From: a virus | Reading direction: 5' to 3' (one strand) | Length of the DNA: 64,000 nucleotides | Virus record (IMG/VR): IMGVR_UViG_3300025401_000021 | Location: 1 to 64,000 of that record | In this document: positions 3,761-9,581 of the stretch, piece after piece | Numbering within the stretch: position 1 is the first letter of the stretch | How the letters are laid out: each line of letters begins with the position of its first letter | Program-made: the position numbers and the translations under genes | Notes under the pieces: generated by a model | What the model saw: the letters and a program-made list of their open reading frames with translations, nothing else | What the model was told of the DNA's origin: nothing | Databases searched by the model: none

Positions 3761-4027
3761 TTATGGGCAATTAACATTTGGGCTTCCTTGTGAAATAGAA
3801 TGTCCACAAGTATCTCCTGATCCAACACGCAATACGGCAACTCCTTCTGCAAAAACAGTCGGACTTCCGTCAGTAGTTTTTGCGGCAGCATGTGGCCCAT
3901 CACCGTGTGGTGTAATATCACTTACATGCAATCCAACGGCAATACCATTTGCGAACACGGTTGATGCTCCCTTAATAATTTTGCCGCCAGCCTGATTCTG
4001 GTCGCCCTTACGTGATAATTGCGCCAT
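3761..4027 (-). CDS. PAAR-domain spike tip protein
   Basis: The 88-residue protein is a PAAR-repeat protein, the cone that sharpens the membrane-piercing spike of contractile machines (T4 gp5.4 and the tip of VgrG spikes). The pattern seen is typical: GDQNQAGG, VFANGIAVGLHVSD, HAAAKTTDGSPTVFAEG and VLRVGSGDTCGHSISQGSPNV, with regularly spaced His and Cys (C78, H80, C87) that would bind the metal near the apex. It should cap the gene-5-like spike encoded at 46815-50939, on the other side of the window. AAGGAA precedes the ATG. The gene is packed between two other small leftward genes. Confidence 0.9.
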   Translation of the reverse strand: MAQLSRKGDQNQAGGKIIKGASTVFANGIAVGLHVSDITPHGDGPHAAAKTTDGSPTVFAEGVAVLRVGSGDTCGHSISQGSPNVNCP

Positions 4028-4036
4028 TATGTTTCC

Positions 4037-4348
4037 TTATCCGAGGATCAACTTTTTAGTATCGGGAATTACCAATCCTGTTGTAGCCTGAATATATTTA
4101 TTCTTTACTGATTCATCAGTAAGAGCATAAATCACAACGCTATTAAGATTGAGCTTTGTATCGGCCTTGGGGTCTGCTGTAAATAAACTTGGCACAAGCC
4201 CAATACCCTGTGCACCCGGTGCCACGCTTAGTGGATCGTGAATTAATACTTCACCATTCTGAATATCAAGAATTTTAGTAACCAATTCTTCTCCTGACGC
4301 AAGCTTGAGTGTTACCACGTGACCAATTAAATCTGATAAATGCTTCAT
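4037..4348 (-). CDS. Small unrecognised protein, possible Sm-like beta fold
   Basis: The 103-residue protein starts at an ATG with AAAGGA upstream. Its N-terminal half (GHVVTLKLASGEELVTKIL, then GEVLIHDPL) reads as short beta strands with a turn after LASGEE, as in Sm-like small barrels; similar small proteins occur in T4-like phages. This fold assignment is only an impression. The C-terminal part contains a polar, helix-prone segment (TDESVKNKYIQATTG). It sits between the glutaredoxin and PAAR genes, so it could belong to either the metabolic or the structural group. Confidence 0.6.
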   Translation of the reverse strand: MKHLSDLIGHVVTLKLASGEELVTKILDIQNGEVLIHDPLSVAPGAQGIGLVPSLFTADPKADTKLNLNSVVIYALTDESVKNKYIQATTGLVIPDTKKLILG

Positions 4349-4358
4349 TATTTTTCCT

Positions 4359-4589
4359 TTATAATACTTCTGTTAACTTATTGCGTAATTCTTTGAAGCC
4401 GCCCACATACTCACCGTCAATGAATATCTGCGGAATTGCTTGAGCGGCAGGAACGGCTTCCAGAAGGTCTTCTTTTGTATATCCCTCACCGATCTTACGT
4501 TCTTCAAATTCAATACCCTTTTGTGTCAAAAGCACCTTTGCCTGTGTGCAATAAGTGCAATTATCACGTGACCATACTACTGCTTTCAT
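4359..4589 (-). CDS. Glutaredoxin
   Basis: The 76-residue protein has the full glutaredoxin pattern: a thioredoxin-fold start (MKAVVWSRDNC), the redox motif C11-T-Y-C14, the cis-proline segment IPQIFIDG, and GGFKEL near the end. Glutaredoxins reduce disulfides using glutathione. In T4-like phages they are the electron donors for ribonucleotide reductase, whose two subunits are encoded just upstream in the same direction. Its ATG overlaps the stop codon of the sirtuin gene by four bases (ATGA), so the two are translationally coupled. Its own ribosome binding site (GGAGA) lies inside the sirtuin gene end. It is the likely counterpart of T4 nrdC, though shorter. Confidence 0.9.
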   Translation of the reverse strand: MKAVVWSRDNCTYCTQAKVLLTQKGIEFEERKIGEGYTKEDLLEAVPAAQAIPQIFIDGEYVGGFKELRNKLTEVL

Positions 4590-5377
4590 TCTATTTCTCC
4601 GTTAAATAATTTCATAACCACATCAATTCCATTCAATGCTCCGGTTGGCACTGACACATCAGAAGCACGATTAATGGCATAATCATGTGGGTTGATACGA
4701 ATTAATCTGTCTGTTCTTTCTTCACCCATCATTCTTATGCTTGGAACTGCCAAACCTGCACCGATTTCAATCCCGATAATTTTTTTCTTATCCTTTTCCC
4801 AGTTCAGATAATTGCGTTCCTGCTCATTGACCTTATAGGGAATAAACCATGGATCATTGAACATCATTACTAATGGTCGGTATACCGCAAGACAGCGTGG
4901 ACACGTTGGTATTTCATCTATGTGGGTTAGTTTTTGTGTAAATTTTGGCATAGGCTTAATATCTGCACAACATCCATGGCTACATTGAACATATTCTAAG
5001 TTTCCATGAATTTCATATAGTCTGTCACGATCATATCCTGCTTTGATAAAATGCCCATCCACATTACTAGTTATGACAAAAATATCTTTTGGCAATTTTA
5101 ATAATTCATAATACCCACGATGAGGTGAGAGTTCACTATACATAAGAAATCTGTTTATGTAAAAGTTCCAAGAGTCTAATGGGGCATTATGAAAACTGTC
5201 AGCAGTTGCATATTTGATGAATGCATCTTTCTCTGCTGTCCAGATTCCAGAGTTTCCCCTAAAATCTGGAATACCAGAATCTACGCCCATGCCTGCTCCT
5301 GCAAGAATCACAACACCATCCGCGTCTCGCAAATCCTCAATAATTGTATTGAGGATTACGCTGTTACCATTCTTCAT
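4586..5377 (-). CDS. Sir2-family NAD-dependent protein deacylase (sirtuin)
   Basis: The 263-residue protein carries the sirtuin signatures. The NAD-binding GAGMGVDSGIPDFRG lies at about residues 27-41, TSNVDG takes the place of the usual TQNID, and the catalytic His is in EIHG. Two Cys pairs (in CSHGCC and CPRC) form the structural zinc site, and GAGLAVPS is the second NAD motif. The TSNVDG and IEIGAG variants belong to a common bacterial single-domain Sir2 subgroup. Such enzymes remove acyl groups from lysine using NAD+; here the target could be host metabolic or transcription proteins, or NAD pools tied to defence. It starts with a strong AAGGAGA site and is coupled to glutaredoxin. Neither start nor end is truncated. 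Confidence 0.9.
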   Translation of the reverse strand: MKNGNSVILNTIIEDLRDADGVVILAGAGMGVDSGIPDFRGNSGIWTAEKDAFIKYATADSFHNAPLDSWNFYINRFLMYSELSPHRGYYELLKLPKDIFVITSNVDGHFIKAGYDRDRLYEIHGNLEYVQCSHGCCADIKPMPKFTQKLTHIDEIPTCPRCLAVYRPLVMMFNDPWFIPYKVNEQERNYLNWEKDKKKIIGIEIGAGLAVPSIRMMGEERTDRLIRINPHDYAINRASDVSVPTGALNGIDVVMKLFNGEIE

Positions 5378-5393
5378 AAATTCTCCTTAATTC

Positions 5394-5421
5394 ACATCAT
5401 ACCATATTTTTTGTATGATGT
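5394..5421 (-). other. Stem-loop between nrdB and the sirtuin gene
   Basis: A perfect 9-bp inverted repeat (ACATCATAC at 5394-5402, GTATGATGT at 5413-5421) flanks a 10-base A/T-rich loop. It lies directly after the nrdB stop codon. It has no T-tract downstream on the minus strand, so it is more likely an mRNA processing or stability hairpin, or a weak attenuator, than a full terminator. Confidence 0.5.
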
Positions 5422-5424
5422 CAA

Positions 5425-6558
5425 TCAAAGATCAGGAAGTTCGTCGTAGTCAAGAACGTCAGACATAATACCAATAACATATGATGTGCTTTCTGACTCT
5501 TGCAAGGCAGTTTGCTTTTTAGATGTGTCCATGTGCTTGTTAAACCATGGAATAGGTGTAGATTTTGGTGCCGGATTCCAGTATTTCATACCGATCTGTT
5601 TAAGAGCATCTACTGCATTATAATCAACAAAATCTACCATGATGCGTTCATTAAGTCCGATAACTGGACCCTTTTTGAAAAGATATTTTGCCCATTCTTT
5701 TTCTTCACGAATAACATCTTCGTAAATCTTTCGCACTTCCTGTTCGCACGTAGTCTTAGCAGTTACGAATCGCGGGTCTTCCTTGACAACCTGATTGATC
5801 ATCCAAGCAGTCCATTCTTTATGTAGAAGTTCATCCTGTAGGATCAAGCTGATGATGTTACCATTGCCCATGAAAATCTTATTCTCAACCATTGCCAGTG
5901 ATGTCGCAAATGATACCATGAAGCGGAATGCTTCAAGTGCATAGGAGGCATGAAGTGCCAACCAAATAGCATTAATGTGCTCTTGTTCAGGAACGGCCAT
6001 AGCATCTGCCCAAGCTTTATTGCCTCCTGTAAAGTTGTCTACCAGTTCCTTGCGGCAATTCAGCACATGTAAATCGTCATAATACTTACCTACACTAGCA
6101 GCCATATCAATGATTTCCTGAGTGTCATGGATAGTGTTGAATACTTCTTTCGGCACATTGTAGATATTGCGAATAATGTGTGAATACGAGCGACTGTGAA
6201 TATTTGTTTCGAATGATGACCATATTAAAACCAATGATTCCAGTTCTGGAATAGAACAAACAGGAGAGAATATTTGTACCGGGGCGCGGCCTTGAATACT
6301 ATCTAATGCAGTTTGTCTCAATAAGTTAGCAGTAAAGATATGACGTACAGTATCGCTGGAATCTTTAAAATCTCCGGCATCCTTAGATAAATTAACTTCT
6401 TCGGGAACCCAAAAAAATCCACGCTGCATTTCTTCAAACTTAGCAAGCTTGGGCTGACGATATTCTTCAAATCGCTGAACAGTCACTACACCATCCAAGA
6501 ACATCTTTCGTTTTAGATAGTTAGGAACGTTACTGATATTGTATTGATCTTTAGACAT
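5425..6558 (-). CDS. nrdB: Class I ribonucleotide reductase beta subunit (NrdB)
   Basis: The 377-residue protein is the radical-generating subunit of aerobic ribonucleotide reductase, which makes dNTPs for phage replication. The metal-ligand pattern is visible: Asp in LLRQTALDS, Glu/His in FETNIHSRSY, Glu in AMVENKIF, and ExxH in QDELLHKEW. The radical Tyr is Y125 in HSRSY. Odd point: Glu117 and His121 are separated by three residues (E-T-N-I-H), whereas E. coli NrdB has two (E115, H118). One extra residue thus sits between two iron ligands with the reading frame intact. The start overlaps the region after the homing endonuclease stop. The gene is separated from nrdA by that endonuclease, a common insertion pattern in T4-like phages. 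Confidence 0.95.
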   Translation of the reverse strand: MSKDQYNISNVPNYLKRKMFLDGVVTVQRFEEYRQPKLAKFEEMQRGFFWVPEEVNLSKDAGDFKDSSDTVRHIFTANLLRQTALDSIQGRAPVQIFSPVCSIPELESLVLIWSSFETNIHSRSYSHIIRNIYNVPKEVFNTIHDTQEIIDMAASVGKYYDDLHVLNCRKELVDNFTGGNKAWADAMAVPEQEHINAIWLALHASYALEAFRFMVSFATSLAMVENKIFMGNGNIISLILQDELLHKEWTAWMINQVVKEDPRFVTAKTTCEQEVRKIYEDVIREEKEWAKYLFKKGPVIGLNERIMVDFVDYNAVDALKQIGMKYWNPAPKSTPIPWFNKHMDTSKKQTALQESESTSYVIGIMSDVLDYDELPDL

Positions 6559-6561
6559 GAT

Positions 6562-7251
6562 TTACTTCTTTTCCTTACAGTTATCAAAATGCCATCTTGG
6601 CATTGCGATTGCGCCGCCCGTTTTGTTACAATGCGGACAAGTTACTTTTTCTCGTATCAAAAGCCTGTGCGTGTCTCCATTTTTCAACTTTGACTCTTCG
6701 CTGTGGTTCTTTGGTCCATTGCCCCCGTTTGCGAGTTGTGCTTTTCTAATGTTTTCTTTATGAGACACTGATTTTGGTTTTCTCATATTCTGTTTAGTTT
6801 CTTCTGTTTTCGGTTTTCCTTTTGATGACAAAGTTTTTCCGAATACACAATATGATGATTTGCCACTAGCGGTATTGAAGTATCGTTTGTTGATACATAG
6901 TGTGTCTGCTATATATTCTTTAATGATATTTTGTTCAAACTCAAAACAAAGTTCGGGATTTGAGTCCTTAAACAATATCACAGTTTCAAACGAACTGCTC
7001 CCTGTTTCTTGTATCAACTTTTTCACTTCTTTAGAAGATGAGAAATATGATGTCCAAAGATCATCTTCAGGCAATGTGCCTTTCTTTATATGATTATATC
7101 TGGAACCATAGTAAAACTTGCCAGTAGGTATATGTCTAATATAATAGACATAGGCAGGAATATTATCTAAATACATTTGCTGTAACTCCTCAGTGTTATA
7201 GAGCCGGTAGATATTATCAGTATCGTGATCGGCAACTGTATTTATCACCAT
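6562..7251 (-). CDS. GIY-YIG homing endonuclease between nrdA and nrdB
   Basis: The 229-residue protein has a GIY-YIG nuclease core: YVYYI at about residue 34 and KFYYGSR at 45-51. Next comes a basic linker with NUMOD-like DNA-binding motifs (GKPKTEETKQNMRK, SVSHKENIRKAQ). The C-terminal zinc-binding motif has CPHC near residue 206 and a MPRWHFDNC end. Such free-standing enzymes cut related genomes that lack them and so spread their own gene. The position between nrdA and nrdB is a classic homing site. It starts eight bases after the nrdA stop with AGAGG upstream and ends three bases before the nrdB ATG, so it lies inside the operon. The protein looks intact. Confidence 0.85.
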   Translation of the reverse strand: MVINTVADHDTDNIYRLYNTEELQQMYLDNIPAYVYYIRHIPTGKFYYGSRYNHIKKGTLPEDDLWTSYFSSSKEVKKLIQETGSSSFETVILFKDSNPELCFEFEQNIIKEYIADTLCINKRYFNTASGKSSYCVFGKTLSSKGKPKTEETKQNMRKPKSVSHKENIRKAQLANGGNGPKNHSEESKLKNGDTHRLLIREKVTCPHCNKTGGAIAMPRWHFDNCKEKK

Positions 7252-7259
7252 TCTAGCCT

Positions 7260-9581
7260 CTACAACTTACAACTCTCGCAATCCCCGTCATCATCAAAGT
7301 CAATAGGTTCTAACATGCCAGGTGCGTCATCGGCTTCTTCTTTGGACCCCCGCTTATCAATAAGACTATAATAATTTGTTTTTCCACCCCATTTGGCGAA
7401 TAGCATTAAATTTTTTGCAATAAGCGTAGTAGGAACCCTACGATCAGGAAAATGCTTAGGAGAATAAAAAGTATCAGTAGATATGGACTGATCTATGTAT
7501 GCAGCCAGTACCGCTGCTGTCTTTAGATATCCAACACAGTCCGTCTGTTCCCACATCAATTGATAGTTCTTACGAACCTTGGGTATATGATAATCGGGAA
7601 CTACCTGAACAAACGATCCTGCCTTTGATTCCTTGATGGATATTAAACTCATTGGCATTGCGATGCCATTGGTTGAATTAATAACAACCGATGATGATTC
7701 AACTGGTGCGATTGCTCCAACAGTAGTATTGCGAACGCCGTATTGCTTCATGTTTTCACGTAGGGTTTCCCAATCAAGTTCAGGTGTGAAATCGGCTAAT
7801 TCATTTACACCCTTTGCGCGAAGTTCCCATGGAAAAATTCCCTGACCATAACGAGTTTTATCAGAGTCAATACATTTACCGCGTTCTTTGGCAAGTTCAA
7901 CATTAGCTTCCATCAAATAATATGTTTGATGTTCAATCCAAGACTTGACTTCCTGTAACGCATCCTTTTCTCCATATTTCAATCCGCGCTTGGCATGCCA
8001 GTATGCAAGGTTGGTGATCCCGATGCCAATAGGCCGAATTTCATCATTGGAAAGTTTTGACTGGATAGATAGAAAGTCTTGATAGTCAAGAATGTTATTC
8101 AGACTACGCAGCAAAAGACGACATGCTCTACGCATATCTTCTGGATTTCTAAATGCTCCCCAATTTATACTACCAAGAGTGCAAAGGGAAATTCTGCCAT
8201 TTTCATCTTCAAGATTCTTAAATGGGCGTGATGGTAAGGTTATTTCTGCACAGAGATTGCTCTGATAGATACTGTGATATTCAGGATCAAATGGACCTTG
8301 ATTCATCACATTATCTATATTCATTAAATATATGCGACCAGTATCTGTACGCTCCTTGAGAAGGCCGCTCTTGAAGACTTCTTCGGCACTCATTACCTTC
8401 TTGCGTAAATCCTTACGCTTTTCATACTTTACGTAGAGTTCTTCAAATTTAGCAGTGTTTGAATAGAACGCCTCATAAAGGTCAGGAACTTCGTTAGGAT
8501 CAAAGAAGGTGATGTTCTCTTTGTTCTTAAATCTTCGCCAGAAGAAACCTGATAGAACCACTCCGTAATCCATGTGGCGGACTCGGGTCTCTTCTGTTCC
8601 CTGATTATTCTTAAGCACTATAAGATCGTCAAATTGATGATGCCAAATAGGAAACCAAACTGTGCATGAAGCATTACGAATGCCACCCTGTGAGCAAGAT
8701 CGTAAATCGCCAAACCATTTCTTAAGAAAGGGAATCATGCCAGTATGCATAATTTCGCCGCCACGAATAGGTGATCCAAGCGAGCGAAGTCTTCCAATTT
8801 CTAGTCCAATGCCAGCACGTTTACCGGCATACTTGGCCATCATTTGTCCTGAAGCAAAAATTGAGTCCAGATCGTCATCGCTACGAATAAGAACACAACT
8901 GCTGAATTGCTTTGTGGGAGTACCAAGACCAGCAAGAACAGGAGTAGCCAAAGTGAATAAACCATCAGAAGCAGCATTATAGTAATCTTTTACATAGCGC
9001 ATTCTTGCAGTGTTTGGCTCTTCTTTATGAAAGACCGTTGCTGCTGCAATAATATATCTGACTTGAGGCGTTTCATAAATTTCTTTAGTGGCTCTATTGC
9101 GAACAAGATATTTTTCAATAAGTTGCTCAACTGCCGCATATGAATACTGTTCGTCTTTTGAATGATCAATAATATCATTCATTTTGTTCCATTCATCCTC
9201 AGAATACCATTCTAGGAGTTCAGGCGTATAAAGTCCAACAGATATGTTTTTCTTTACAATATCATATAGGTGAGGAGGATCAAATTGTCCATAAACATCC
9301 TTGCGAAGCATAGACAATCTCTGTTTCCCGGCAACATACTGATAATTAGTGTGACCTACGTCAGGATTAGACTCTGCGTCAATCAAATCAACTACTGCTC
9401 TTAGTGTGATTTGGTCAATTTCTCTAGTAGTAATGCCATCAAAAAAGTTTGGTTGTGCTTTAATTTCTACCATTGACTGGCTTACATCTGCTATTCCTGC
9501 ACAAATTTTTGTAATCTGTGCTTGCCACTTTTCTAAGTCCAGTGGTACGACTTTTCCTGATCGTTTGGTTACGTTAATCAT
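7260..9581 (-). CDS. nrdA: Class I ribonucleotide reductase alpha subunit (NrdA)
   Basis: The 773-residue catalytic subunit reduces ribonucleoside diphosphates. An ATP-cone regulatory domain (VTKRSGKVVPLDLEKW) occupies the first ~95 residues. The active-site cysteines are seen in FSSC (about 229), in N-x-C-x-E of SNLCAEITLP (about 444), and in SLCTLGSINWG (about 467). The C-terminal CESCKL is the mobile CxxC pair that passes electrons from glutaredoxin. Length and order match the family. Its ATG overlaps the stop of the preceding gene by four bases, so it is translationally coupled to that unknown gene. With nrdB, glutaredoxin and the sirtuin it forms a leftward nucleotide/redox cluster. Confidence 0.97.
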   Translation of the reverse strand: MINVTKRSGKVVPLDLEKWQAQITKICAGIADVSQSMVEIKAQPNFFDGITTREIDQITLRAVVDLIDAESNPDVGHTNYQYVAGKQRLSMLRKDVYGQFDPPHLYDIVKKNISVGLYTPELLEWYSEDEWNKMNDIIDHSKDEQYSYAAVEQLIEKYLVRNRATKEIYETPQVRYIIAAATVFHKEEPNTARMRYVKDYYNAASDGLFTLATPVLAGLGTPTKQFSSCVLIRSDDDLDSIFASGQMMAKYAGKRAGIGLEIGRLRSLGSPIRGGEIMHTGMIPFLKKWFGDLRSCSQGGIRNASCTVWFPIWHHQFDDLIVLKNNQGTEETRVRHMDYGVVLSGFFWRRFKNKENITFFDPNEVPDLYEAFYSNTAKFEELYVKYEKRKDLRKKVMSAEEVFKSGLLKERTDTGRIYLMNIDNVMNQGPFDPEYHSIYQSNLCAEITLPSRPFKNLEDENGRISLCTLGSINWGAFRNPEDMRRACRLLLRSLNNILDYQDFLSIQSKLSNDEIRPIGIGITNLAYWHAKRGLKYGEKDALQEVKSWIEHQTYYLMEANVELAKERGKCIDSDKTRYGQGIFPWELRAKGVNELADFTPELDWETLRENMKQYGVRNTTVGAIAPVESSSVVINSTNGIAMPMSLISIKESKAGSFVQVVPDYHIPKVRKNYQLMWEQTDCVGYLKTAAVLAAYIDQSISTDTFYSPKHFPDRRVPTTLIAKNLMLFAKWGGKTNYYSLIDKRGSKEEADDAPGMLEPIDFDDDGDCESCKL

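Follow-up and report, generated by a model that had tools for sequence, protein, structure and literature searches.

Sirtuins consume NAD+. Their canonical members carry a TQN motif and a GTS or GSS loop, both seen too in Sir2Af1, and a YxxR motif in the acyl pocket is the signature of class III. Class M sirtuins are described as devoid of deacylase activity: they have QG for HG, a Gln-to-His substitution abolished the activity of SpySirTM, and their pyrophosphate loop reads GVGx[NT]TP (PMC4518038).

Sirtuins are already on record in phages. RNA repair was predicted by Iyer et al. for one phage sirtuin clade, of T5/V5/BF type (PMC9503650), and the T5-like member lies near genes annotated as RNA repair. 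The KVP40-like Vibrio phages phiGrn1 and phiSt2 encode a highly divergent Sir2/CobB protein, which shows a high transcript level 20 min after infection and is discussed together with NAD+ and nucleotide metabolism; linkage to a ribonucleotide reductase (RNR) operon is not stated in the part of that source available to us, and the comparison is with the published description (PMC5107563). Nor was a phage sirtuin in an RNR operon described in the literature searched (subscription journals and preprints lay outside the search). The locus reported here encodes such a protein.

The sirtuin gene and its operon

The window, i.e. the whole stretch of 64,000 nucleotides that was analysed, is part of a virus record of 81,600 bases. 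The source is probably a jumbo phage of which this is a fragment, since its capsid protein shares 66–67% identity with its counterparts in PA5oct-like Pseudomonas phages and in Vibrio phage 2.275.O (284–349 kb), and two related contigs measure 333 and 361 kb. The genes of interest follow one another on the minus strand: nrdA, the large subunit of a class Ia RNR (7260–9581, 773 aa), a SegE-type GIY-YIG homing endonuclease sitting in the nrdA|nrdB slot (6562–7251), nrdB, the small subunit (5425–6558, 377 aa), the sirtuin (4586–5377, 263 aa), grx, a dithiol glutaredoxin of 76 aa with the motif CTYC (4359–4589), p103 (4037–4348; phrog_527, function unknown) and a PAAR-motif protein (3761–4027), the last identified by scanning the copy of a 100%-identical relative. 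Both p103 and the PAAR gene are conserved markers of the locus in relatives. The sirtuin and grx are thus immediately downstream of the two RNR genes, with 47 bp between nrdB and the sirtuin. NrdA passed the class Ia equivalog model of NCBIfam (821.2 bits for a cut-off of 813), NrdB fell short of its own (301.1 versus 346 bits) and matched a class Ia beta subunit of the PDB (E 2.3e-70), and the CxxC-containing glutaredoxin matched PF00462 (E 4.5e-12, 46.4 bits, cut-off 22.9). On the plus strand, an ORF of 211 aa (242–877) faces the conserved locus. If this is the NAD-using ADP-ribosyltransferase candidate mentioned in the original prediction, the suggestion found no backing, as the ORF had no Pfam, PHROG or PADLOC match.

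The SIR2 gene is intact and its predicted product retains the catalytic His, the four zinc cysteines and the YxxR motif, in keeping with the earlier description of a full-length Sir2 protein with NAD motifs and a zinc site. It matched PF02146 (E 2e-17, 64.1 bits, cut-off 24) and phrog_2162 (E 4.9e-38) and remained below every cut-off of the NCBIfam deacylase models (119.9 bits versus 243 for the best one, 106.6 versus 320 for CobB). The recognised motifs are G27-A28-G29, D38F39R40, Y73xxR76, T103-S-N-V-D107 and H124-G125, followed by a zinc site made of Cys 132, 136, 159 and 162 (one CX3C and one CX2C pair) and by a C-terminal loop, E204-x-G206-A-G208xxxP212. The GAG and DFR motifs, N105, D107, H124 and the four zinc cysteines are found in all 25 aligned family members, Y73 in 23 and R76 in 24 of them. 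What distinguishes this GAG-type family is that TSNVD replaces the canonical TQN, with Ser where Gln stands, and that an E-x-GAG-xxx-P loop replaces the GTS/GSS loop.

An AlphaFold model built from 12 sequences (pLDDT 82.8, under 50 in the cofactor loop 29–44) matched sirtuins at VIA Z scores of about 19–21, consistent with a Sir2 fold. The gene is clearly under purifying selection: in the 15 pairwise comparisons of six sirtuins, pN was 0.12–0.32 and pS 0.66–0.97, a ratio to be taken as a rough estimate because pS is near saturation. The low pN against a nearly saturated pS indicates that the protein is maintained.

The sirtuin stop and the grx start share an ATGA at 4586–4589, as originally noted, and a Shine-Dalgarno-like GGAG for grx lies within the 3' end of the sirtuin gene. 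The further idea that this overlap marks a functional sirtuin–glutaredoxin pair was not supported. The grx gene starts at an [A/G]TGA in 77 of 81 relatives, mostly without a sirtuin and whatever gene precedes, which rules out translational coupling as functional evidence; besides, in two related contigs (L207 and L211) the sirtuin lies between nrdA and nrdB. Similarly, nrdB ends with ATGA in 13 of the 32 loci with an nrdB–grx gap of at least 60 bp and in one of the 48 with smaller gaps, an excess expected if the start codons of cargo genes were fused onto nrdB. These counts show that ATGA junctions are usual in this operon. The ATGA between the sirtuin and grx comes with the start of grx itself and is probably incidental, which makes the coupling reading weak.

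The gap between nrdB and the sirtuin also contains a sigma70-like promoter sequence (5396–5424, minus strand; TTGACA-N17-TATGAT with a TG before the -10), and an AAGGAG separates it from the sirtuin ATG. The site is a consensus match and suggestive only: two sites of this kind occur in the 64-kb window versus 0.45 expected, and 7 of 100 shuffles gave at least as many. If used, it would mean that the sirtuin need not depend on read-through from nrdB. A TTGACA was likewise seen by eye upstream of the sirtuin of one relative (L003), with a poorer -10.

Sirtuin class and predicted chemistry

The closest solved structures belong to the ADP-ribosylating class M, as near ties with Sir2Af1 and SIRT5. 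When the C-terminal half of a bacterial family member was searched against the PDB, SpySirTM came first, aligned through the GAG/GVG loop; it ranked behind Sir2Af1 and ahead of SIRT5 with the family profile. Foldseek placed a class M SirTM at rank 1 for the model, with an E value tied with that of Sir2Af1, and VIA-align gave Z scores of 20.7 for Mfs1 (8rsn), 20.5 for SpySirTM (5a3a), 19.7 for Sir2Af1 and 19.3 for SIRT5; margins within about 1 Z unit make the class ranking a matter of near ties. A tree also grouped class M with the GAG family, a placement on which we do not lean because the class M rows are partial and have long branches, and the tree program itself flagged that such branches meet.

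The window sirtuin shares with class M a TxNxD motif without Gln, an E-x-G-[AV]-G loop and a zinc site starting as QC...C. It differs from it by the HG motif, with His in all 25 aligned members where class M has QG, by its GAGLAVP loop, which occupies the equivalent position and falls outside the class M consensus, and by its surroundings: none of the nine window proteins scanned is a macrodomain partner (the relatives' neighbours were scanned in part). With class III, as represented by Sir2Af1 and SIRT5, it shares the YxxR motif and high profile and structure scores, while their GTS loop and TQN motif correspond to GAG and TSN. Since HG is kept here and replaced by QG in class M, the window sirtuin is, judging from its motifs, most plausibly a deacylase, with ADP-ribosyl transfer as a live alternative.

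Two versions of this alternative may be considered, a class M-like ADP-ribosyltransferase or a KptA-like healer of RNA ends as proposed for other phage sirtuins, and taken together we find them doubtful. The former draws on the rankings just described and on the resemblance of E-x-G-A-G-x-x-x-P to the class M pyrophosphate loop, yet the structural margins are slight and the residue conserved throughout the family is precisely the His that inactivated SpySirTM. The latter draws on the RNA-repair prediction made for a phage sirtuin clade; however, the NAD loop of T5-type sirtuins is different. Indeed, the T5-like protein, although also a phage Sir2 and a member of phrog_2162, matches this family far better than the window sirtuin does (E 1.6e-105 versus 4.9e-38) and is devoid of the GAG loop and of the four zinc cysteines. 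In addition, no lipoylation, 2H, Nudix, cREC, PIN, RNA ligase or HAD gene was found among the nine proteins scanned next to the sirtuin.

Distribution of the sirtuin and cargo of the RNR operon

The GAG-motif type of sirtuin is widespread in bacteria. At least 587 relatives of the window sirtuin were confirmed in GTDB genomes, and among the ORFs drawn from the best 80 of them, 74 of 78 combine TSNVD, HG and ExGAG. These chromosomal proteins are up to about 40% identical to the window sirtuin, and the phage clade is separate from them (SH-aLRT 100). In seven of the ten bacterial genomes searched, at least one further sirtuin scores much better against the SIR2 family; the other three contain no sirtuin of that kind. 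The 80 bacterial loci (the best of at least 587) revealed no common neighbour beyond small minorities, their larger neighbourhood clusters consisting of the sirtuin itself and of out-of-frame ORFs overlying it; WYL-type regulators (nine loci) and a 5'-nucleotidase-like ORF (three loci), named by eye and not always adjacent, recurred weakly.

The 50,697 records of isolate phages yielded 25 matches at 1e-5, each with less than 34% identity (another 627 weak matches, from a looser search at E values of up to 10, were kept out of the counts). Phages Paride, PA5oct and X1 have no related sirtuin, and Vibrio phage 2.275.O gave a weak match only. In another jumbo phage, a GAG-type sirtuin has, some 3 kb upstream, an ORF that by eye resembles a macrodomain (L019, 4430–4948).

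Close relatives of the window sirtuin (51–100% identity) are carried by 17 viral contigs and form one clade apart from the bacterial members. The survey of synteny proposed with the original prediction showed that the pairing recurs and that the RNR neighbourhood is not unique to the window: in 11 of these 17 contigs, the sirtuin adjoins RNR genes or the glutaredoxin gene of the operon. It lies between nrdB and grx in the contigs of the window type (L001, L204 and L005, the last of which ends inside the sirtuin), in L004 and in L092/L206, before grx in L003/L205, where nrdB is off the contig, between nrdA and nrdB in L207 and L211, and after the large subunit of a different RNR, whose nrdB' is 23% identical, in L208–L210 (52 bp from the Pfam match of the large subunit in L209). 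L008 shows no visible flank, and the sister branch with 51% identity (L212–L216) carries the sirtuin away from RNR. Thus, if the 51% branch is set aside, each of the seven lineages of the clade with a visible context has the gene within an RNR operon, at one of two positions and next to one of two unrelated RNRs. By eye, the unrelated large subunit gene of L208 and L209 looks split (ORFs L209, 4067–5044 and 5031–6026) by an insert that resembles an intein and contains an HNH-type ORF, and its counterpart in L210 (3819–5555) looks uninterrupted.

In the sister branch, neither an RNR large subunit nor NrdD was found in the five records of L212–L216, and no class I small subunit in the four records of L212–L215 (119–310 kb); all of these records may be fragments. 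The jumbo-phage records of L212, L213 and L215 encode, some 97 kb from the first sirtuin, another one that matches weakly. Conversely, eight large sirtuin-less relatives all possess nrdB, and a scan of their whole records gave no related sirtuin. The 80-locus set of relatives contains some near-duplicates. The loci were collapsed to a sample of 92 distinct nrdB sequences, which the best 80 of 417 relatives entered and which includes L208 and L210: a sirtuin is on the locus for seven of them and absent for the other 85. On a tree of nrdB (88 rows, L208, L210 and two rows under 300 aa having been left out), the sirtuin state needs five changes, at least four of which are forced by starred branches, and the carriers do not cluster.

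The gaps in which the sirtuin resides are a hotspot for optional metabolic cargo. Of the gaps visible for the 92 distinct nrdB sequences, those measuring at least 150 bp make up 43 of 68 at nrdA|nrdB and 29 of 89 at nrdB|grx. Their contents comprise Aldolase_II (22 loci), HNH-type endonucleases (9), SGNH-like proteins (7), the sirtuin (5), PGDYG (4), SHMT (3), antisense GIY-YIG endonucleases (3), isocitrate lyase, SOD and others, the SGNH-like and HNH cargo being identified by eye and the other names coming from Pfam. Both slots are used by the SGNH-like, sirtuin and PGDYG families and by two further ones, and in Xanthomonas phage X1 a zinc-finger gene occupies the nrdB|grx slot. Individual instances are an isocitrate lyase (PF00463; L223, 1580–2785), a SHMT (PF00464; L025, 4188–5372), a class II aldolase (PF00596; L084, 198–863), a Fe/Mn SOD (L087, 4599–5156) and, in the nrdB|grx slot of L028 (3580–4095), a cargo protein of 171 aa with no Pfam or PHROG match. 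Similar antisense GIY-YIG endonucleases are present in the nrdB|grx region of L003 (before 516, minus strand), L047 (7074–7844, minus strand) and L075. The one in L003 is directly upstream of the sirtuin, and these endonucleases are a possible vehicle for cargo turnover.

Role of the sirtuin

We give about even chances to the sirtuin being an optional NAD-dependent deacylase, an auxiliary gene housed in the RNR-operon hotspot of a jumbo phage. A catalytically intact GAG-type sirtuin would be made from a cargo gap of the class Ia RNR operon and would remove acyl groups from lysines in an NAD+-dependent manner; its YxxR motif suggests acidic acyl groups, for instance succinyl. It may in this way reset the acylation of host or phage metabolic enzymes during phage dNTP synthesis, its place in the operon presumably ensuring co-expression with RNR and its putative promoter possibly boosting it. 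The invariance of the catalytic and zinc residues, the purifying selection and the scatter of the carriers over the nrdB tree argue for such an optional gene. The presence of all seven lineages in RNR operons, the proximity of class M by fold and sequence and the Ser that stands for the canonical Gln of TQN argue against a deacylase that is hotspot cargo.

It is possible that RNR itself is the substrate, in which case the sirtuin would be a dedicated deacylase that keeps phage NrdA, NrdB or Grx free of inhibitory acylation and so sustains dNTP synthesis. The occurrence of seven lineages in RNR operons, either at nrdB|grx or immediately behind nrdA, and beside two unrelated RNRs is more than purely random cargo would predict, the sirtuin still following the large subunit in L208–L210 although the RNR is of another type. 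Cargo entering at random with no preference for RNR was not accepted outright, since 11 of the 17 contigs have RNR or grx beside the sirtuin, against five that do not and one with no visible flank. There are also precedents: SIRT2 deacetylates human RRM2 at K95, sustaining RNR activity (PMC6642173), and CobB restores acetylated E. coli OPRTase (PMC10087573). However, the rarity of the gene next to nrdB, the unrelated cargo found in both slots and the sister branch with no detectable RNR speak against this dedicated role in dNTP synthesis, which we consider unlikely. As to the RRM2 analogy, a rough residue count places K95 near Glu42/Glu43 of the window NrdB, so that the lysine looks unconserved. 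Overall, the observation behind the original prediction is confirmed and its interpretation partly supported.

Also improbable, to a similar degree, is that the protein represents a phage lineage devoted to RNR, akin to class M but with the His kept, that enters RNR operons repeatedly and controls RNR or its reductant by deacylation or ADP-ribosylation, thereby linking the NAD+ state to the supply of dNTPs. A much poorer candidate is a counter-defence or NAD-pool enzyme directed against NAD-based host immunity: the fold consumes NAD and genes of NAD metabolism do occur in phages (PMC5107563), but there was no PADLOC match, Pfam and PHROG recognised no other NAD gene beside the sirtuin, and sirtuins use up NAD+ rather than restore it. 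Least probable of all is a selfish or neutral cargo of no benefit to the phage, delivered by the GIY-YIG and HNH homing endonucleases that occupy the same slots and, in L003, adjoin the sirtuin, given the clear purifying selection and the fully conserved active site.

The link of one phage sirtuin clade to RNR operons provides testable partners, namely NrdA, NrdB and Grx. The GAG-type motifs, which stand between those of deacylases and those of class M, make the family a good place to study the switch in sirtuin chemistry. Finally, the RNR operon as a metabolic cargo hotspot, with isocitrate lyase, SHMT, aldolase, SOD and the sirtuin as tenants, should be useful for mining phage auxiliary genes.
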